46,417 bases of DNA from the NCBI GenBank assembly GCA_001600495.1, contig BCKE01000088.1, forward strand, positions 1-46,417, in the 5' to 3' direction. The translations under genes were made by a program, and so were the position numbers. The first letter of the stretch is position 1; every line of letters starts with the position of its first letter. The notes below the pieces were generated by a model. That model was not told the origin of the DNA. It did not search any database and saw only the letters and a program-made list of their open reading frames with translations. The DNA comes from Pilasporangium apinafurcum (lineage: Eukaryota > Oomycota > Peronosporomycetes > Pythiales > Pythiaceae). Below are positions 3,358 through 17,000 of the stretch, one piece after another.

Positions 3358-4473
3358 TTTCCCTACTTCAACTGACTGAAAGAAGTTCTCTAGGTTCAAC
3401 CTCACTTCCAGGAATGTACCCAAGGTTATATGTATCAGATTCATAGGTTTTATATCACTTTAGTAGGTTCATTGCATTTAGCCCCATAGGCTCCTAGTGG
3501 TTTTATATTTTTGGAATCATTAACATTTAATTCAGTTGCAGATTTTCCTTACACTGCTCAAGTCTCCTTCTTAAGCTTCTTCCCTCTCCTTCCAAGTCAG
3601 GAGTATTGCTTCCTCGTCGCACAAGCGTGTGTGTTGTGTTTTGGGATTGTTGTATCAGTCCCATTACAGGGATACATAACGTGTTGTAGAGACGTGAGTT
3701 TTGGACCCACGTTATCACATTCCTGTAGTGTTGAACCAGTCGCATTCTGTGTGTAATTCTGGTTCTGGTCTATCACGGTTTCTCTGATAGTGACACGGTG
3801 CTTTGGGTCCGCCCTAACTGTCTGTGTTCTTTGTTTGGAGTGTAATTCTGTGGTGTCATCGTCAGGTGTACCTTGGTGAAGCCCCTTTAGAAGAATATCA
3901 TTTGATTTATCGACATTCAACCGACGCATCCGTCCGAACATTTCAATAGGAAAGAAGTAGAAAGATGATCGCAATCAGGTTAGGAAAACATGCATTCAAC
4001 GGGAGCTTAGATGTAGTGCTAGCGAACTAAGTCGTCCATCTAATTCACTTTTCATTTTACCTTCAAGTTACCATCTCCGCCCACCAACATCCTACAAAGT
4101 TCCCATATTTCAGCCAATCATGAACCTCAAACTCATTTTTTGTCCAATCATCGTCTTTAAATTTCGTAAATACCACAAGGGGAGTCTACTTACTTTTCAA
4201 ACGCATCCATACGGTTAGTCTGTATATCGGTAATCGGCAAAAGGCAACTTTTGGGGGTTATGGGGCTACTATTGAAATGTATTTCTTATTGACTACAGAT
4301 TACAAGGATAGATAAGACTATGAGGAGAATGAGGTACCTCCGGTGCTGGTGCCGCGCAAATTTGAGTATTTATTCTTTGTATGAACCTATGAAGAAAACG
4401 CCAGAGGACGCATAGGACGTGGAGCATCACAGGATGGTAATCAGCTGTACCGCAATTGCTCCAGCCAGTCTGA

Positions 4474-4489
4474 TTCATTTTTCGACTTT
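4474..4489 (+). promoter_or_regulatory. Possible oomycete Initiator-type core promoter
   Basis: TTCATTTTTCGACTTT sits about 80 bases before the ATG of the zinc-repeat gene and resembles the oomycete Initiator plus flanking region (TCATTYY followed by T-rich sequence). This is a match by eye only. Confidence 0.35.
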
Positions 4490-4569
4490 GCGTCTTTTCA
4501 CCAGCTATCAGATCATTGCGGCATTCCTGATCTGTCTCTGCCTCGAAACAGCCTTCGATTCTCAAGACA

Positions 4570-5676
4570 ATGGAGACACAGGGTGTAAGCATCAGCGAGA
4601 TACTGAATCTACCAGAGACGATCGATTTGCTCAACGATGATGACTTTGAGAGCACAATGATGATGTTTGACAATGTTGCGACCCCACGAACTGCTTCCTT
4701 CCGAAGAGAATCGATCAGCGCGATGGATATGAACTTGGGGCTGGTGGATCTCTTTTCTCCGAATGAAACAGACTCCGCCGTTGTTGCCAGTCGCATTAAG
4801 GAAGAGAAACCAGCGCTCATTATCTCGACCAGTGCGTTCTCAAACACGGCGACTATGTACAACTCACCTGAGGTGAAGTTGCGCAACATTCGGCCATCAT
4901 TGCTTGGCCACGGCACCCCGGATACAGTAACCATTAAGCAAGAACCTGGAGCGCCAGAATTGTCTCCAGTAATGGATTCTTTCCTGCAGGAGTCCTGGGA
5001 TGACATTGTGGAAGGCAGCAGCAAGAAATCTAGCCGTTCATTGACGAAGGTGCTTTATGGAGGATTGCCGATCACAGGGTCAACGTCCACATCAACACCG
5101 ACAATACGTATAGCCCCACTGTCTCCTCATTATTTTGTCCCTAATCCACTGACCAGTCACATTCCGTCGAAACCCATCGTTGTTGCGCTTGTCCCACCTC
5201 CGAAACATTCTATTACCAAGCCAGCCGAAGAAGCGAAACAATCGAAGCCACCAAGACGAGCAAAGCAATGTGTGGCAGAAGGCTGCACGCGCAGAGCACA
5301 ATCCAACAATCGATGCAAGACTCACGGTGGTGGAGCACGTTGCCAGATGGAGGGCTGCACTAAAAGTTCCCAAGGTGGAGGGCTCTGCCGTGCACACGGT
5401 GGTGGCAAAAAATGCCGTGTACCTGGCTGCACAAAAGGTACCCAGCGTCTCGGCTTGTGCTATTTGCATGGAGGCATTCGTCGGTGCATGGCAGAAGGCT
5501 GCAAGAAGAAAGATCGTGGTAATGGGTATTGTATCTCCCATGGTGGCGGCCGACGGTGTGAGGTTATGGGTTGTGAACGATCTGTCCGAAAGGGCAATCA
5601 CTGCCAAGCACACCAGTGTTCAACCAGTGACAGTCCATTTAAGATTCGACGGAGCCAAGTGCTTATTTCACAGTAA
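4570..5676 (+). CDS. WRKY19-like CCHC zinc-repeat protein
   Basis: This is a single-exon gene of 368 residues that starts at the first ATG after an Initiator-like element. The N-terminal two thirds are Ser/Thr/Pro-rich with an acidic stretch near the start (LLNDDDFES). A basic patch then leads into about five tandem units, roughly residues 233-348, each of the form C-x4-C-x(9)-C-x2-HGGG-x2-C. These units give Cys/His sets suited to zinc binding. Proteins with these repeats are common in oomycetes and are often labelled WRKY19-like because the plant protein carries the same repeats, but no WRKY motif is present here. A nuclear or nucleic-acid-binding role is an inference from the basic zinc repeats. 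It is the only plus-strand gene in its neighbourhood and runs convergently into the temptin array. Confidence 0.88.
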   Translation: METQGVSISEILNLPETIDLLNDDDFESTMMMFDNVATPRTASFRRESISAMDMNLGLVDLFSPNETDSAVVASRIKEEKPALIISTSAFSNTATMYNSPEVKLRNIRPSLLGHGTPDTVTIKQEPGAPELSPVMDSFLQESWDDIVEGSSKKSSRSLTKVLYGGLPITGSTSTSTPTIRIAPLSPHYFVPNPLTSHIPSKPIVVALVPPPKHSITKPAEEAKQSKPPRRAKQCVAEGCTRRAQSNNRCKTHGGGARCQMEGCTKSSQGGGLCRAHGGGKKCRVPGCTKGTQRLGLCYLHGGIRRCMAEGCKKKDRGNGYCISHGGGRRCEVMGCERSVRKGNHCQAHQCSTSDSPFKIRRSQVLISQ

Positions 5677-5787
5677 AAGTAGCGCTCGTGCATTAATATT
5701 GGAGCTGATTTTATCTACCTACCGAAGCGTTGTAATATCAATAAAGAAAGTTGTATTGTGTCTTGGTCATATTTTTGGAAGTTAAGA

Positions 5788-6316
5788 TCAGAAAACCAGG
5801 AAAAGGAGTGTAATAGCAGCTCCAACAACAATCGCGAGAGCACCAGTAGCATTGACACCACTGGATGAAGCTGGACTTGCCGGTACGTCCGAGGAGACAG
5901 AGCTCGTGACGGTGGCGGCCCTAAAGATGAGTCACACGAGATGTCTGCCCACAAAGATTCATCCGAAGTGCTGGAGGCATCACCAGGATGGGAAACACCG
6001 GTGGTCCACTGCACTTTTTCGTTGGTTCCCACGACGAATTGACAGCAGGGATCTCCAAGTTCTTGGCCGTTCGTCTGTCCATCACCATCTGAATCTGCTT
6101 GGCAAAGCTCAGTTGTCCATGCGAATCCAGCAGCATCAAATGCTTGACCAAAGTCGTTTCTGGCGCCGCCACCGATACCGTTGACATGACCAAGGGCTGT
6201 GACACCCTTGACGTTAGCGCCGTTGGGAATACGCGCGACAAATTCTGGACGATTGGCTACTTCAAGCGCTGTGAGAGAAATGACCAGAGCTGCTCTGATC
6301 GTATTCGCTGGAACAT
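5788..6316 (-). pseudogene. Temptin-domain gene, copy 1 (two frameshifts)
   Basis: The central frame encodes the temptin domain: RPEFVARIPNGANV near the start, the acidic loop DSDGDGQTNGQELGDPCC, and GVSHPGDA. Both ends are broken. The only usable ATG (6314-6316), aligned to copy 3, is out of frame with the domain by one base, and the domain frame has no ATG upstream. After the domain, near 5915-5930, a second shift moves the reading frame off a Ser/Ala-rich tail ending in a hydrophobic stretch (stop at 5788-5790) that would have been a GPI-anchor signal. The core is identical to copy 3 over 318 bases. This is probably a pseudogene refreshed by gene conversion. Sequencing error at both sites is the alternative. 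Confidence 0.75.
5935..6252 (-). repeat. 318-bp identical tract shared with temptin copy 3
   Basis: Every base of 5935-6252 equals 9267-9584 (constant offset 3332). Sequence on both sides diverges at once. The tract covers almost exactly the conserved temptin domain and leaves out signal peptide and tail, which suggests recent gene conversion between the two copies. Confidence 0.85.
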
Positions 6317-6430
6317 TCTTTTGTATGCGTTTTTTTTCTATGGCGGAGTAATGATGGGAAATACTTGGTGCGCTTATCGTCAAAAATGGAAATACCGACT
6401 GTCGTTTCTCTTCCTCTTACAAAGAGCTTA

Positions 6431-7786: not shown

Positions 7787-8365
7787 TTAAACAATTGCCG
7801 ATACGAGTGTGGTAAGAATTACGGTAGTGATCGTCGCGGCGGTAGTTGTCTTCCTTGCGCTGCTTTCAGTAGGAGTTGGCGTTGGTGATGCTTTTTGTGC
7901 ATCCGCCTCTGTCGATGAGTCCACCGAAGAAGAAAAAGAGCCACTTGCAACGGTCGATGTCGATCCTGACGAAGCATTGCACATGATTTTCATCCACAAT
8001 GACTCATCTGACTTGCTTTTGGCATCACCTGGATGTGACACGCCATCAGTCCACGAGACTTGTTCATTGGATCCAACTACAAACTGGCAACAGGGATCAC
8101 CAAGTTCCTGTCCGTTGGTTTGTCCGTCTCCATCAGAATCTGCTTGACACAATTCAGTTGTCCATGCGTATCCAGCCTCTTCAAACGCTTTGCCAAAGGC
8201 ATTGCGAGGTCCATCACCCGCTGGATTCACGTGACCCAGTGCTTGGACCCCCGGAACATTTGCACCATTAGGGATACGGGCAACAAACTCTTGACGTGCC
8301 ACTACCTGATGTACAGCGAAAGCGATTGTGAGAGCCAAAGTCGTTTGTAATGGTCGAGAAACCAT
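7787..8365 (-). CDS. Secreted temptin-domain protein, copy 2
   Basis: This intact single-exon gene encodes 192 residues. It has an N-terminal signal peptide (hydrophobic TLALTIAFAVHQVVA, cleavage likely near residue 24). The temptin Cys/Cys domain follows, with QEFVARIPNGANV, the Asp-rich loop DSDGDGQTNGQELGDPCC and GVSHPGDA. A Ser/Thr/Pro-rich stretch and a hydrophobic C-terminal tail then suggest GPI anchoring. Temptin was first described as a water-borne attractant partner in a mollusc, and oomycetes carry families of secreted homologues of unknown role. This copy is clearly diverged from copies 1 and 3 within the domain. A cell-surface or secreted location is inferred from the two end signals. 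Confidence 0.85.
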   Translation of the reverse strand: MVSRPLQTTLALTIAFAVHQVVARQEFVARIPNGANVPGVQALGHVNPAGDGPRNAFGKAFEEAGYAWTTELCQADSDGDGQTNGQELGDPCCQFVVGSNEQVSWTDGVSHPGDAKSKSDESLWMKIMCNASSGSTSTVASGSFSSSVDSSTEADAQKASPTPTPTESSARKTTTAATITTVILTTLVSAIV

Positions 8366-9049: not shown

Positions 9050-9652
9050 TTAGGCAAGAATTGCTGTAAGTGTCGTGACAATTGCAGCGGTGATAGTCGC
9101 AGTCACAGCTGACGTAGCTGCTCTGTTCTCAGTAGGAGTCGGCGTTGGTGTCGTCGAGGTTACTTCATCTGCAGCAGACGTCGTGGACGTATCGGAGGTG
9201 GTAGAGGAAGACGTGGCAGTGGAGCCAGCAGATGTTGTGGAGTTGGAGGCAGAAGAAGCTGCATCGCACGAGATGTCTGCCCACAAAGATTCATCCGAAG
9301 TGCTGGAGGCATCACCAGGATGGGAAACACCGGTGGTCCACTGCACTTTTTCGTTGGTTCCCACGACGAATTGACAGCAGGGATCTCCAAGTTCTTGGCC
9401 GTTCGTCTGTCCATCACCATCTGAATCTGCTTGGCAAAGCTCAGTTGTCCATGCGAATCCAGCAGCATCAAATGCTTGACCAAAGTCGTTTCTGGCGCCG
9501 CCACCGATACCGTTGACATGACCAAGGGCTGTGACACCCTTGACGTTAGCGCCGTTGGGAATACGCGCGACAAATTCTGGACGAGCAGTAACCTCGAGGG
9601 CGGTGAACGCGATGGCAAGAGTCACAGTCACAGTAGTTGATCGTTGAACCAT
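9050..9652 (-). CDS. Secreted temptin-domain protein, copy 3
   Basis: This intact single-exon gene encodes 200 residues. The signal peptide (VTVTLAIAFTALEVTA) is followed directly by the temptin domain, from RPEFVARIPNGANV to about residue 130. That domain holds the acidic DSDGDGQTNGQELG loop and a CC pair. A long Ser/Thr tail, probably O-glycosylated, then precedes a hydrophobic end (AIVTTLTAILA) typical of a GPI-anchor signal. It lies in a same-strand tandem array with copies 1 and 2, and its domain-coding region is identical over 318 bases to that of broken copy 1. A surface-displayed role is inferred, and the ligand is unknown. Confidence 0.88.
   Translation of the reverse strand: MVQRSTTVTVTLAIAFTALEVTARPEFVARIPNGANVKGVTALGHVNGIGGGARNDFGQAFDAAGFAWTTELCQADSDGDGQTNGQELGDPCCQFVVGTNEKVQWTTGVSHPGDASSTSDESLWADISCDAASSASNSTTSAGSTATSSSTTSDTSTTSAADEVTSTTPTPTPTENRAATSAVTATITAAIVTTLTAILA
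9267..9584 (-). repeat. 318-bp identical tract (partner of 5935-6252)
   Basis: This is the copy-3 member of the identical pair and the likely donor, because its reading frame is intact at both borders. Confidence 0.85.
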
Positions 9653-10920
9653 GTTATTGATAGTTGAGAAGTAAATCGCGTGCCCAATTGGTGTCGAATT
9701 GGGAAATGAAACTCGTTGTATGCTCCGTGGATGAGCTCACTGTGGAGTGAGTAGTCAATGCTTCTCAACACGACAAGCGCTGCTGTTCGAAATTCGAAAT
9801 ACTGGAGTTTAGTATACCGCAGATGAAAAGGAATTAATGCTGATGGTGTGTATTGTGGGACCACCAGATTCCGTATGTTTAGCATCCGTAGAAGCAAGAG
9901 TCTTGCTACGTTAGCAGAGATGATTACATTCTTGGAGCAAATCCGTCGTTGTAATCCCATCACATGTGGTTGCGACATCTGAGAATGTTGTTTAGACGCA
10001 TAGGAGCCACAGGCGACAGATTGCGAAGAGGTGGATGATTCGTGAGAGCAACAAATTCCAAAAAATCCATTTTTCTCTGCCACTTGCTCACAGCTAATTG
10101 GATTCTAAAGTCTATGCATCAATTACTCCCATTTCTGTGGAGAGACGCACGACTCGTTCATTGGATTGGTTGAGAGATTTTTTATCACGGCTGAAGCAAT
10201 CAATTCGTTTGGGATTTACTTTACGTTGAAACTACCAAGGCTGTAGGATCTCTCGATACCACTTTATTTAAGATGCCAAGGAGAGAAGATGCTTTTTTTC
10301 GCCAGGCGTAGTTCACAGGATTGCGAGCCACATTGCTCAAATACTTGGTCTTTTAGTTGCTTCATATTCACCATAGCGAAAAAAAGATCCATCGTTCGCT
10401 AAACTTGAATCTGACTCTAGTGATATGCGTAAGCCTTATTTCACAGCAGGGCGATGACAATGCCAATGACAACCTAAAGTTGATGCTGATATTCAGTTGC
10501 AGTATATTTTAACCCAAACGATGTTTTATTACCACGCAGAAGAGTGGGAGTTGCGGCGCTTTTTTGTAGGATGTGGGCCATAATCCAAGCGTGGGTACCC
10601 ACAACTGAAGGCCGTAATCAAATACTGGACGACATAACGAGAAAAGTGTACGACAAAGCGATCCTGCACTGCAACGCGTAAGAAAATTTGGATCTCATGA
10701 TGGCCAACAGTTATATCGCGCATACCCACACTATGCCAGAAATTTTATCATTGCAATTAAAAGTATAAAAGGCGAGCAGCGTTTACTTACGGATTTTTGA
10801 TAACTCGTTCACCAACAGTCACATGCACAACAATTTCAAAATAAATCGTTTTTCCATTCAACATTTAGACACACCAGTAAGACTCGACCATCACATCATT
10901 AACCTTTATTTCCCACATCA
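9653..10920. other. Intergenic between temptin array and Fanzor locus
   Basis: I see no gene with supportable features. One open frame running back from about 10083 overlaps the start of temptin copy 3, begins at GTG and has no domain, so I treat it as chance. A perfect 12-base palindrome GTGGGTACCCAC lies at 10591-10602. The boundary of the mobile-element island could be anywhere in this stretch. Confidence 0.45.
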
Positions 10921-11007
10921 TTGTACCACGTGTGGTACAAATGGGAAAATAGTTACACTCATTCGTTCCCGGAATCATAACAGTGAGGACTTTTATCACC
11001 TCAGTTT
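10921..11007 (-). ncRNA. Candidate structured 3' end / guide-RNA scaffold of Fanzor
   Basis: Downstream of the Fanzor stop codon (11001-11003) a small stem TGAGG/CCTCA overlaps the stop itself. About 60 bases further on is a near-perfect hairpin, TTGTACCAC and GTGGTACAA around a 2-base centre (10921-10940). In TnpB/Fanzor systems the guide RNA scaffold is transcribed from the 3' end of the gene and its flank, so this is where it would be expected. That identification is positional inference. A Fanzor element end or an ordinary terminator hairpin are alternatives. Confidence 0.35.
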
Positions 11008-12871
11008 TTGATTTCGAGTACCAATTCATTCTCTTTCCTCGTGAACGCCTTGAGTCTCCTCTTTTTCTTCACTTGGTCGATGAATAGTCTCAAAATGTTG
11101 ATTGCGGCGTTGATGTCACGGTCCCACAATGTGCGATGACATTCACTATTTTTGCAGTGTCCCACACCATAAAGACCGTCACTGACAACTTTTCCGTCAA
11201 GGACGAACCCCTTCATCTTCTTGTGACAAGTACAACACAGAATGCTCGTCCTGAACTCGTCCACATCAGCAACACGACACCTGGAACCAATTTTCTTCTT
11301 TAGGGTCGTTGTAGGAACAGCAATGTTGCCTTTAGGCTGAGCTTGTGAAACTTGCATCTCCATATGCGATAACAATTCATTTATCGTCACCTGTAAGGTT
11401 CTTGACTACCTTCTCGTANGTCTNTTGNCGACGGANGTAGGNCNACCATCGTAGCCTCTTCATCCTCCTTGATGAATACACGTCAAGAAGACGATCCAAA
11501 TACACGAGACAAAATCTCACCCGTNNCAAATAGNAGNNAAGGTTNNCAANTTTTGCCGAAGGAAGTTTTCATTGAAGGTTTTGATGTCAGACTCAGCATC
11601 AATCCACTCTTTGGTCAACTTTGTTCGTCTATGGTAGCCGCACTCTCTGTAGAAACGACCCTTCGACCAGTGGATGACTTCATGTTTCACCTTCTCTCCT
11701 TTCAGTTTTTGCAGCGTAGCCATGCTTTCCTCTTTGTAGACAACAGCAGTGAAGATCTTCTTTCTTCCTGGGTCTAAATCGATGATCCGGTCTTCAAGAG
11801 AAAATCTCTCTTTTTGCTCTCTCGCAGGGAGCTTTGGACGGGAGATTGCCACACTGACATACTGTCGGTCGAGATGAAGTGCTCAAACTCCTTTCGCTGG
11901 ACTTTGGTCACAAGACCTATATTGAAGTACGTGCGCCATAACTCAGCGTTATCGGCGTAAAGCTCAACAGGCTCACCCAAAGCCTTAGCAAGATGTTCCA
12001 AGACGGTGGTGTTGATCTTGATGAAAATGGGTTTGAAGTGTTTCTGTGAAAGCAGATACCAGACTTGGCAACCCTTCATTCCATCATCCACGTGAGCTTG
12101 TATGTCTAACAACATTGTATGGAGAAAAGGCATGTGACGTTCCGGTGATTTGTTCAAGTCGAGTGGCAGCGGTCCGATCTCGTTTCTCACTCTATCCGAT
12201 AATTCTTGTATCCAAACAATTTCCGCAGTAGGGATGGGATACTTCTTGAACCTGGAGTACACGGGGATCAGGACGGATAAGCTATGCTGAGTTTCGGTGC
12301 TTGCACGGACCAGCAGTGAAACAGCACTCTTGGTTATCTTGCCTTGGTGCTTTTCAAAATAGTCACTGTTGTGAAGACGTATCTGCAGGCGCATCCACTT
12401 ACACAATCAGGAGTAGAACGTCAATCGGTTGCTGACTTGAAAATTCTGCCTTGCATGCTGAGCGATCAGGACCAACATCTGAGCCATGTGGGGTCTTCGT
12501 TCTGTCAGTTCATAATTCGAAGGATGTTGGATGCTGTAAAGGTCCAGACTGGTCTCCAAGTCAGAATGAACCTATCCACTGCCGGTCAAGTTGGCTATTG
12601 CAGATGAGCATCGATTGAAAAAGTTATTATCCAATGGAGGAAGTTCTTCGCTAGCTTCCAATAATCGCAGAACATGGACGGATGCCAGCATAGATATCTC
12701 ACATGCTATTCTTGAACAAAGTCGCACAGCCTCATCAATCTTTTTTGCTATTCTTTTGTCTTTGGAAAACTTTCTCCAGCCAGGCTTCACCGTTGTGTAG
12801 ACTATTTACTTTTGTCGAGCTTTCCGCTTTTTAGCGGTGTTCTCTTCAGTACCGTAGCTCGTTGATGCCAT
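11001..12871 (-). pseudogene. Fanzor nuclease (eukaryotic TnpB homologue), degraded
   Basis: Reading the minus strand from ATG 12871 gives a nearly full-length Fanzor1-like protein of about 600 residues. A basic NLS-like segment AKKRKARQK follows the start. In the C-terminal half come RuvC-I (DLDPGRKKIFTAV, about 11755-11790), the Fanzor-typical RRMKRLRW...Y.RRQ..YEKVVKNLTG segment (about 11405-11475), and the zinc finger C-x2-C...C-x4-C. RuvC-III DRDINAAINIL follows at about 11100-11130. Three in-frame stops (12806-12808, 12572-12574, 12407-12409) and at least two frameshifts (near 11860-11880 and near 11390) break it, and many Ns fall near 11420-11550. Fanzor proteins are established RNA-guided DNA nucleases carried by eukaryotic transposons. 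This copy is most likely dead, although the Ns leave room for assembly error. It faces away from the mariner transposase at 13192. Confidence 0.85.
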
Positions 12872-13135
12872 TTTATCACAACGTTCAAAAACAAGAACGC
12901 TTCGTAGCTTGTTTGATCTTTTCGATAATTTTAACTATACTGTTTCTCAAAGCTGCAGTTCTTTCTGCTTTGGCGAATAGTGTTGAAGCGACACTCAATA
13001 GATGGACATGAGGTGGTAAATACTTCAATTCAATATGGTTCGCTATTGAGAAGCCCAGTAGAAACTAACATTGTAAAACAGTGTGTACTTCATAGACTAC
13101 AACTCTACTTCCTCTAGTACATCAGGGGGAAAAAG
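12872..13135. other. Divergent intergenic between Fanzor and transposase
   Basis: AT-rich sequence with no coding frame. It would contain both divergent promoters if the Fanzor and the transposase once formed one element. Confidence 0.45.
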
Positions 13136-14065
13136 GTTATTACGGCTTGCAGTGAGAATGTCGCCTTTTTTATCCATAAAAATATATAGTCATGAAATCA
13201 ATTGTTGAACGACAAATTTGTTTTCATCTTCAGACCCAAAGATTCACCCTCAACAAGATAACTGAGATTCTTGATATAAGCAAACGAATCGTTCAACATT
13301 GGCTCAGTGGTGTTAAGTTTGCAGCACGACCTCTCAATCGATCTCATCTGCGAAAATTGAATGACAATCAGCCCAACCAACTTGTCATTTTTTTTCTTAA
13401 TCGTAATACAAGCACACTTGCTGACAGAGTTGTTTTCGTGAAAAATACGTATGATGTTGATATCTCTCTACGAACAGTTCAGCGCATCTTGCTAGAACAT
13501 AAAATCACGTACAAAAAGGCTTCNATTGCTTATCAAGAANNCTNTAGCACACANNAACNNCANTTTTTGTCATCANTGTCCAAANANACAGGGANAAAGT
13601 GGATAGCNTTGGATGAANCAGCATTCTTTCTCAATCACAGCCGAAAGTATGCATGAAGTGTGAAGGATCAGAGAGCTATTGTGAGAAAACCAGGACGACG
13701 AGGAAATTTACATTCGTTGATCTTAGCAGCATCATCCAATGGCGTTGAATGATGCTTGTTTTCAGGAAGTATGAACTCGGTAAGCAAGAAGCTGCTACCC
13801 GTACAGACGTGACCACAGAAGGAAAGCCAGACAATGGTGCTGGTAATAATTATGATCCAACTGCAATCTCTAGCGCAAGTTGATTAGCTTGGAGAACGTA
13901 GAAAGAATAACAAGTGTCCATGAGTGCCCACAAGGAGGCTCGTCTCTCTTTTAGGATATCCATACGCTGTGGCATTAGAACAAAGCCCGAAAGCAAATGT
14001 GAGGGAATACCTCAGGAACTTTTAGACTTTTTTAGGGTGACATTTTCGGTGCCTTTGGTAATTAC
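13136..14065 (+). mobile_element. Candidate Tc1/mariner-type element
   Basis: A decayed inverted repeat (20 of 30 positions match) joins 13136-13165 to 14036-14065. It flanks a mariner-like transposase at a size, about 0.93 kb, typical of this superfamily. The right arm ends immediately before the stop codon of the neighbouring PHD gene (14066-14068), so the element would have inserted at that gene's 3' end. The arms are short and imperfect, so the boundaries are tentative. Confidence 0.45.
13192..13790 (+). pseudogene. Tc1/mariner (DDE_3) transposase, broken
   Basis: The N-terminal half is intact: a first helix-turn-helix (TLNKITEILDISKRIVQHWLSG) and a second HTH/winged helix (ISLRTVQRILLEHKITYKKA). 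An N-rich stretch follows (13520-13620). The catalytic domain then begins with KWI.LDE, containing the first catalytic Asp. The phase continues after the stop at 13654-13656 as SVKDQRAIVRKPGRRGNLHS and LILAASSNGVE, with a second stop at 13750-13752. Both stops are TGA where the family usually has Trp (TGG), consistent with G-to-A decay. The C-terminal catalytic residues are missing. It is a dead transposase, divergent from the Fanzor pseudogene. Confidence 0.8.
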
Positions 14066-17000
14066 TTACAGAACACTGCTATCGTTGTTGGAAGAGTCAG
14101 GTGAAGCAAGCATTTGCAGCTTCTGCAAAATTGACACACCGCTTAGCTCCAGTTGGAAACTTCGAGCTTGTTTTTCCGCATGTTCTTTCCATACAAGGCG
14201 CTGGGCACCTGCGTCGACCGCTAATTCGCCATCTCGACTTCTCTCTGCAGCATTGAGATACAAATCTAAATGTCCGAGATGTCGAAAGGCATCAGCTAGA
14301 TACCACCATGCTCGCCGTTGCTCTTGAGAATCAATTGGAGTGTTTGCTGATGGGTTTCGTTCGAGAACATACAAGTAGAGACGACTTGTCAACAGATAGT
14401 GACCTTCTACCAACGCACGAAGGGCAAATTCTGTCACCATTTCCCACTTTAGCCGTGCTATGTGGGCTCCTTTGTCTAACGCACTCCCATTTGAATAACT
14501 CAATCCGTCATGGAAATGCAACTTTTTCACTTTCTTCTCCATGGTCCATTGTCGTAGCGCAGCTTTCCACGCTTCTTTCGCCAATCGACGGCTGAGAGCG
14601 GTTCCTATGCTTTCGTAACTAATTGCACACAGTGTGAGAATGTCTCGCTCCAAATATGGTGGCGGTGGAATATCCTGTAGATATTCCAGATACTTTACAC
14701 TCTGCTCCCATTCGCCCCGTTGTTGAAGTTGCACGGCGGCCAGCAGCAGCCACAGGGGGAAATCGTTTTCTTGGGAGAAAAATTCAATCAGTTTGGCGAA
14801 CATCTGCAAAGAGACACTGAAGTTTTCCATATGCATCATCACAATAGCCAGGTCTTGCAGGATGAAAGGATCAACTATCGATGCTGCATCTTTGGATGAG
14901 CGCTCTGATAGTGAATCTAATGCTTCACAGTAGTGATCATACGCTCGTTGGAGGTTAAACGCGTCATACGAAGTGTGCCACGCCTTGTGATGCGAGTACG
15001 CAAGAACAATTCTTCCATCCCAGTCGAGGGTGTCTTTACTGAGCACCCACATTCGTTCCAGCATCGAGGCTGCGTTCCAAAACTCTCCACGATCGTAGAA
15101 AGCCATTCCTAACGTGTAGAGAATGTCCTTTACACTTCCATCTGGATGATTCATTAACTCATTCGATGCAATATTCAATGCTAATGCAAGTGTGTATATC
15201 TGTACGCGAAGTTTCTCTTTTCTTGCCATGCGAGTGAGAAGCCAACCGCGAAAAAATCGTTGAACTTTTTTAAGTGCATGTTTTTCTAGAAGAACCCGCA
15301 ACTTCTCTTTCGTTTGGAAGTGTCGATACAGATGTTGGATCCGACTACACGCAGCGTTCTGATGCTTCTGCAGTGCTGCAACTGCTATCGATCGCCCCTT
15401 CCACAGCAAGTAAATTCGCTTCCACCATCGCATGATACGCCAAACCATCATAGTCTTCCTTGTCTTGACATATGGATGGACGCGTCGGCAAAAGAAGCGG
15501 CAGATCCGCTTTTTCGCCAGCGAATTCTGTTTCATGGCGTCATCGTAACTTGAGTTGATAGCCTGGCAATCTTCTGCTGTGTCTTGTAGCGTCAAAAGTA
15601 ACTCTTTCTTCACTTGGATTTGACGGAACTTCCGCACGAGCACCAATATAACACCAATGCACAACTGTAACATATGCAATGACATTAGTGCCTTTTGTTT
15701 GCGTTGGTTTAGCAATTCTTCGGAAATACGACGCTGCTCCTCCGCTAGCCGCTTCTTCTTCATCCTTTGGGATCGTTCCTTCCACCCTAGACAGACACGA
15801 TGGATAATTTTCGCAGCTAACTGTAGTTTAAATATGTTTCGGTGACTATCGTTAAGCCCCACACTTCCAGCTTCTATATCACCGGAGTTCACGTCGACAT
15901 CTTCTGCTGCTAAGCACAGAGACTCGTTCATTTCTATTACAAGCTCTTTCACTGTCAAGGGCTCGTCAATAACGTTGATCAATTTATCTTCACCATTCAC
16001 GATCTGGTTCTCTTTAAAATCTTCCATTAATAAGTTACATGGCTCGACGAAGTTGGTGTTCCGGAGACGTAGCAGTTTATACACATATTCGCCACGTTTA
16101 TAAGTTGAGTCATCAAATAGTTTCGCTATTTCCTCTTCCTCCAGCCAGCGTCGCTGCACCATTTCCTCCAATTTCATTTTGTCTTCAGGAGTCAGTACGT
16201 GCATCACATATCGTTTCTGTGGCGGCTGTCGTTTGACAAGTTCACGTTGACGCTGCTGCTGGAAGTGCTTCTTATCTTCAACAGAACCGTGCCAGAGCGC
16301 AACCGTTTTCTTCATCAATGCAAAAGATGCGGAATAATAAACTAGCTCGTTCGTACGTGCTACTTGACTCATACATTCAGAGTTCAGATGCAACTTGGTG
16401 TGGGTTCGTTGACGTTCCTGATCTAACACTTTAGCTGCTTTGGCTGACCGGAACTCGTGCCAGTCATATCCAGTTGTAGATATATCCCGCCATTGCTTTT
16501 GTACTGGATGTTGAATATCATCAACAATTTGCTTTTCTGGGGCGTTAACATCGACAGGAGGGTGTTTAGTCATGTAGTGAGCACTTTTGCGAGTTTGTCT
16601 TCCTGTTTTGCTTGACAGTGTAGAGATGATCACACGATTTCGTTTAGTCGGTGTGTTTCTTTCTGTTATGGATGGTACAGGATAATATGAAGGAGGATCA
16701 TCTAAAACCTCCGTCGATATGCATTTGTCGCATCGCCATCGAGCAATCATTTCCGCTGACGGAGGGAGGCGGATCTTCTTCCCACTAGATGTTTTTTGTT
16801 GGTGCTGGAACGCTGGATGCTGCTTGAGTGGTGGGGTGAAACAGTACAAATGACGACGAAACGAACAGGATGCGCAGCGCACAATCAATTTCCCGTTCAG
16901 GTCACTACAACAGCGGTCACAACATTTTGTATTCCACACATCTGCAGGGGTGCCAATTCGCTTTCGTCTCTTGAACATCGCTGTTTGTGTGAAGGCTGAA

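Follow-up and report, generated by a model that had tools for sequence, protein, structure and literature searches.

We have identified a decayed Fanzor gene in the oomycete Pilasporangium apinafurcum, and place it in a large family of DNA transposons whose insertion sites carry a one-sided flank motif. The gene lies on the minus strand of contig BCKE01000088.1, at 11001–12871 of the 46,417-nucleotide stretch that was analysed (the window), as established by translation and Pfam profiles. It probably belongs to a dead copy of a multi-copy transposon that had no transposase of its own, carried a Fanzor1 gene and, when functional, made use of a guide RNA, a TAM and copy-back. We base this reading on the match to PF07282, the profile match to SpuFz1, the DPG and E-x6-CxxC motifs, the copy number, the count of a terminal 18-mer, the matching target-site base, a fold shared at the right end, the T before the left target site, and the depletion of stops in shared variants.

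The gene spans about 633 codons, from an ATG at 12871–12869 to a TGA at 11001–11003. A sequence-only reading had reported Fanzor motifs on the minus strand, and all of those it named are present where it placed them. The RuvC-I segment DLDPGRKKIFTAV sits in frame 11517–11852, with its DPG at 11766–11774, and the RRMKRLRW...YEKVVKNLTG stretch spans the N positions. Frame 11001–11390 encodes both the zinc finger and DRDINAAINIL, with the finger (CxxC, 23 residues, CxxxxC) and the RuvC-III DRD at 11115–11237. At 11256–11258, six residues before the CxxC, lies the alternative-position RuvC-II glutamate. With 30.5 bits, the C-terminal piece passes the Pfam cut-off of 26.3 for PF07282 (TNB, OrfB zinc ribbon); the score on the full TnpB model NF040570 is only 29.7 bits (cut-off 100). 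No family exceeded its cut-off for the two window pieces upstream of the C-terminal piece, nor for the N-terminal frames of the relatives L056 and L046; variable N-terminal halves are described for Fanzors (PMC3627910). Within the window, 29 of the 34 Ns fall inside two transposons, at 11419–11550 and 13524–13618, which suggests that reads of different repeat copies were mixed during assembly. Re-sequencing the N positions, as had been proposed, would thus settle little.

Fanzor1 is most likely the best class for this gene, judged by a profile match to SpuFz1 and by the alternative-glutamate signature. A family profile built from nine fragments (seven copies and two window pieces) was compared with 177,635 PDB sequences, and its sole match at E values up to 10 was SpuFz1 (8gkh, E 0.0024), with the family's DEFRTSxxCxxC placed on the DEYKTSxxCxxC of SpuFz1. 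This E value indicates that the family is very diverged from SpuFz1. Among the same sequences the profile gave no match to the Fanzor2-like L79 (9b0l), and PDB searches with single fragments returned no Fanzor and nothing relevant. According to PMC10711439, Fanzors are told from ordinary TnpBs by a RuvC-I DPG and by a glutamate six residues before the CxxC. Both features occur here, the DPG in the window and in the relative L021, and the glutamate ahead of the zinc-finger CxxC. The same paper gives a search pattern for Fanzor-related TnpBs, with 120–160 residues from D to E and CxxC x12–18 CxxC, and the family departs from its spacing, with 172 residues from D to E in L021 and 23 residues before a CxxxxC in the window. 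As the pattern is a search for Fanzor-related TnpBs, we do not take these spacings as defining Fanzor1. The profile search that had been suggested as a check on Fanzor identity thus places the TNB domain above the Pfam threshold and the family profile on SpuFz1, and the DPG and alternative glutamate agree with it. Of four pattern matches on viral contigs none proved to be a relative, and phage records contained no match.

Copies of this gene are numerous. In the assembly of 36.5 Mb and 136 contigs, the middle piece of the protein (210 amino acids) matches at least 152 stretches, the window included (150 scored of 311 candidates), a figure that overcounts copies since some appear in two pieces. 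Among the matches listed, the other stretches share 52–88% amino-acid identity with the middle piece, most of them 70–85%, and a few near 53–54% look like an older subfamily. The 30 best-scoring loci, chosen by Fanzor match, were read (the window, L021, L031–L038 and L039–L058, these last 20 as widened stretches). The Fanzor frame is open throughout in none of them, and the longest open frame runs for 549 codons (L056), about 65 of which precede the start. The suggestion that intact relatives may exist elsewhere in the genome is thus not supported by these 30 loci. L038, which nearly duplicates L037 and has many Ns, was excluded from alignment and flank counts. The 29 aligned copies have a mean pairwise identity of 89.8%, and none is free of stops and frame-breaking indels (medians of 2 stops and 1 such indel). 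Measured against its relatives, the window copy is interrupted by 4 in-frame stops and by 3 indels that break the frame (lengths 4, 1 and 1; an additional 27-base indel preserves the frame), where three stops and about two frameshifts had been counted; it exceeds the family medians, and its decay is not as slight as had been claimed.

Variants found in single copies are near neutral, with 182 synonymous against 168.4 expected (p 0.10) and 20 stops against 23.7. Among variants in three or more copies, stops are depleted (6 against 16.0 expected, p 0.0035), and the 122 synonymous variants are no significant excess over the 111.0 expected (p 0.12). Variants in two copies show neither effect (64 synonymous against 71.2, and 12 stops against 10.8), and single variants resemble shared ones in their codon positions (p 0.94). 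These data suggest to us that copies decayed once they had inserted and that their sources were obliged to avoid stops, and we regard them as weak evidence for selection on the Fanzor protein.

The gene is enclosed in a transposon of 2,234 bp (10903–13136, minus strand), delimited by sharp homology limits of the copies, with the ends CCTTTTTCCCCC... and ...GGGAAATAAAGG in the Fanzor sense. The sequence-only reading had delimited the gene and missed this transposon, together with its structured right end and an adjoining mariner-like element. In copies with intact ends, homology stops sharply on both sides. In the Fanzor sense, typical copies run from CCTTTATTCCCCAC... to ...GTGGGGAATAAAGG and have TTAN on either side, and each end, left as well as right, is a near-palindrome; the left end of the window copy is a shorter variant shared with L049 and L054. 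Genome-wide, the outer 18-mer TTANCCTTTATTCCCCAC has 127 hits and its reversed control 0; the 127 are not an element count, as some are inner arms of the palindromic ends. Paired ends only 0.7–1.6 kb apart mark shortened derivatives at C12:620825-621509, C96:35165-35856, C1:874524-876049, C29:327609-329133 and C95:51390-53005, indicating that internally shortened forms spread or persist without the whole gene.

In the window the right target-site copy is TTAA (10899–10902), read directly and supported by the fourth-base match in relatives. The left one is apparently a remnant (T + TA, 13137–13139), split by the mariner-like element, whose own duplication is TA. Both ends could be read in 17 copies, and in 15 of these the fourth target base is identical at the two ends (permutation p 0.00075), including T/T twice and C/C once. 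Because this base is duplicated as well, a TTAN duplication is favoured over plain TA, and we rejected a TA target site of the Tc1/mariner type; the TTA at the right end is inseparable from conserved element sequence, such that only the last base of the duplication is truly tested. TTAA is present in 34 of 43 left flanks and 14 of 21 right flanks, and 3 of the 43 left four-mers depart from TTAN (TCAA, TAAA and TAAT). Transposons of the piggyBac type duplicate TTAA and have CCY terminal repeats, and the repeats of the Fanzor transposon begin CCTTT. The piggyBac-type DDE_Tnp_1_7 has 3 matches in the genome, with the closest of the 100 ends listed among the 127 exact ones about 14 kb away. No transposase bounded by the ends of the Fanzor transposon was found, and the element itself carries none.

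Directly beside it, at 13140–14061 on the plus strand, lies a Tc1/mariner-like (IS630-like) element in its own right, bounded by terminal repeats of its own (TTAC...GAATGTC) and holding a broken transposase in frame 13192–13656. Family matches of this frame are below cut-off, it has 109 matches in the genome, and the element is 91% identical to a copy in L059. Since the two pieces abut at 13139/13140, and since a pairing of Fanzor with mariner is already known (PMC3627910), one might regard them as a single composite element, like PUl-1 of Pythium ultimum. This is very improbable, and we rejected it. The mariner-like piece has terminal repeats unlike those of the Fanzor element and separate copies, and 37 of 40 scored matches at its far end stop at 14062 (the element end plus the T of TA), with one more stopping at 14061, one at 14050, and the window alone running on. 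Moreover, its TA duplication is nested within the TTAA of the Fanzor element, and on the far side the bases are TT rather than TA, an arrangement from which we take the mariner-like element to be the later arrival. Most likely it inserted into the target site of a Fanzor transposon that was already in place.

Further Fanzor/TnpB lineages are present in this genome, as indicated by at least 150 matches to PF07282 (150 scored of 852 candidates). A second lineage consists of L005 (G000 C135:16686-18401), open over 572 codons, and L001 (C7:592604-593131). These two are 88% alike, with otherwise few short pieces close to them. They have the RuvC-I DPG, an alanine at the Fanzor alternative-glutamate position and, roughly where ordinary TnpBs have theirs, a glutamate (IIFLEKFESQ). 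Eukaryotic cases of this kind are regarded as misannotated bacterial TnpBs in PMC10711439. As L001 lies on an 875-kb contig (C7), near a transposase-like frame recognised by eye, this lineage may be a true exception. An inverted repeat of about 460 bases, 76% identical, flanks the L005 gene and a mariner-like piece (468–926 and 4121–4582 of the joined L005/L060/L061 sequence). A third lineage (L002, L003, L004 and L008) has the Fanzor-type glutamate, in E[DH]YT[TS]KTCSxC; L003, the one of the four that was scanned, has a 504-codon open frame scoring 147.6 bits on NF040570. Elsewhere in the window, three similar predicted proteins lie in series on the minus strand (5715–6383, 7787–8365 and 9050–9652), of which the third, the sole one scanned, matches Temptin_C (E 1e-33). 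A predicted protein on the plus strand (4570–5676) has repeated short Cys/His units close to its C-terminus.

From the stop codon to the right end, 19 of the 30 copies share a consensus fold of three stem-loops; the excluded copies have the right end deleted, shortened or missing. On the minus strand of the window, the putative right-end RNA would comprise stem-loop 1 (10984–11003), stem-loop 2 with a GNRA-type loop (10952–10981), and stem-loop 3, which is the palindromic right terminal repeat (10907–10951). In stem-loops 1 and 2, 96.8% of 285 cells are paired, and the covariation score is 0.121 against 0.102 in shuffles (reached by 2 of 500). Changes on both sides occur in 3 of 15 pairs (reached by 37 of 500 shuffles), with 12 further pair types (139 of 500). 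The terminal hairpin is paired in 90.7% of 439 cells, with both-side changes in 7 of 25 pairs (5 of 500 shuffles) and in 18 cells against 6.0 (0 of 500), a covariation score of 0.141 against 0.088 (0 of 500), and 16 pair types (211 of 500). Relatedness of the copies alone can exceed the shuffle values in such covariation measures. One pair (27–54) is broken in 5 of the 19 copies, and the window copy alone folds modestly better than its shuffles (z -2.0, 10 of 200 as good). Mean difference from the majority is 0.060 in the region of stem-loops 1 and 2, against 0.048–0.068 in the coding region, and 0.215 in the more variable terminal part, in an alignment that includes cut-off copies. The terminal hairpin may have been kept as DNA rather than as RNA. 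Rfam gave two matches in 10300–14100, both below their gathering scores. In the Fanzor1 transposon of SfAV, a three-stem right-end RNA takes in the terminal repeat and the target-site duplication (PMC10711439).

By analogy with Fanzor and TnpB architecture, the variable flank past the right end is where a guide should lie, presumably at 10879–10898 on the minus strand in the window. A second copy of the flank 10300–10899 was not found. The flanks of the L044, L048 and L053 insertions are similar, through one repeated host sequence or a duplication, and their presumed guides would thus be alike.

The left flank carries a one-sided signature. Immediately ahead of the left TTAN, 35 of 43 copies have T, 6 have C and 2 have A, whereas in the parts of the window that lie outside both elements 70 of 260 TTAA sites follow a T (27%; binomial p 1.5e-13). 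At the corresponding right-hand position 8 of 21 copies have A, near background (p 0.32), and left and right differ (p 0.0013). The other nine flank positions are weaker, the next being A at the third base past the right four-mer (12 of 21). Left ends were recognised in 24 of the 30 loci and in 20 extra end stretches, giving 44, or 43 without L038, and right ends in 21 of the 30; the pattern missed the left ends of L033, L039, L042, L054, L058 and the window, of which L033 reads TTTAA by eye and was not counted. The counted T of L055 becomes G if one inserted base is assumed, and the similar flanks of L044 and L048 may not be independent. Gene or end similarity decided which copies were taken, and because the search for the 20 extra ends used a query starting within the four-mer, the flank base had no part in the choice. 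We describe the T before the left TTAN as a TAM-like TTTAN signature. The tested Fanzor1 GtFz1 requires a TAM of TTAA(N) (PMC10432273, PMC11423790), which resembles the motif inferred for this family and makes a motif of target site plus one base plausible. In literature searches that left out subscription papers and most preprints, no title or abstract opening among the papers listed dealt with this family or with a flank-derived Fanzor motif.

The mechanism that we propose for the functional element starts from movement in trans. A separate transposase with a TTAN (mostly TTAA) target and CCTTTATTCCCC ends would probably have mobilised it. A transcript reading through the stop codon into the right end would supply a scaffold RNA of three stem-loops and, after it, some 20 nt of right flank as guide. 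On excision, the re-joined empty donor site would present TTTAN (the flanking T and the target site) and, next to it, the flank that matches the guide; the RNA-loaded Fanzor would recognise and cut this site, favouring copy-back of the element. We propose tentatively, as less than an even chance, that the flanks of this dead family preserve the TTTAN motif of an extinct Fanzor, with motif-bearing insertions re-cut and copied back, such that the nuclease shaped which copies persisted. The one-sided T could instead be the target preference of a transposase with unlike ends, oriented to T-TTAN, with no role for Fanzor. We regard this as possible rather than probable. The left and right ends differ further in, which would allow an asymmetric transposition complex, and the TTAN target is not always palindromic; however, the outermost 13 bases are the same at both ends in typical copies (CCTTTATTCCCCA), and the preference concerns a single base on one side only.

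To our knowledge, the role of Fanzors for their carrier transposons is unsettled, and the Fanzor might have been a hitch-hiker without a role in spread, in an element that multiplied as an ordinary passenger while its gene decayed freely. The absence of undamaged copies from the alignment, the neutral appearance of singleton variants and the shortened forms on C12, C96, C95, C29 and C1 are all consistent with this. We nevertheless think it rather unlikely, given the depletion of stops in variants common to three or more copies, and copies picked by Fanzor match cannot show how common full-length forms are. Several results do count against our own reading of a Fanzor1 transposon with RNA-guided copy-back: the search for a transposase with these ends came up empty, stem-loops 1 and 2 show no greater conservation than the coding region, and two structure measures are weak (both-side pairs in stem-loops 1 and 2, and pair types). 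The codon-position null and the non-significant synonymous excess, the terminal palindromes possibly kept as DNA (the left end being palindromic too), the persistence of shortened forms without the whole gene, and the single-sequence PDB searches without a Fanzor also weigh against it.

The flank signature is the most useful part of this transposon family. With many copies in one small genome, insertion statistics by themselves allow motif, scaffold RNA and guide position to be inferred. Should the one-sided T persist across all copies and be lacking in passengers of the same transposase, it would count as natural evidence that a eukaryotic RNA-guided nuclease affected the survival of insertions. 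Otherwise, the element in the window is a fossil of an already known kind.

Oomycete transposons with Fanzors have been on record since 2013 (PMC3627910). That study names Pythium ultimum (6 entries), three species of Phytophthora and Albugo among the genomes that bear Fanzors, and describes Fanzor1 in Mariner elements both with and without a transposase. Like the window element, PUl-1 and PUl-4 of Pythium ultimum are described there as Fanzor1 genes in inverted-repeat DNA transposons; by that description they are Mariner elements with TA duplications, whereas the present family has TTAN and no transposase was found. The SfAV Fanzor1 transposon likewise lacks a transposase and has a three-stem right-end RNA, which here is a predicted fold, but it is viral and has two copies in that genome (PMC10711439), whereas this family is large, resides in a 36.5-Mb genome and has palindromic ends. 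SpuFz1 and GtFz1 share with it the RuvC domain with a DE(Y/F)xTS glutamate segment, the TNB zinc finger and a structured 3' RNA, in our case a predicted fold alone; those proteins are intact and experimentally tested, whereas the genes of this family are broken in all 30 copies read (PMC10432273, PMC11423790). Thus, the gene and its element are an additional member of the already known Fanzor1 transposons.
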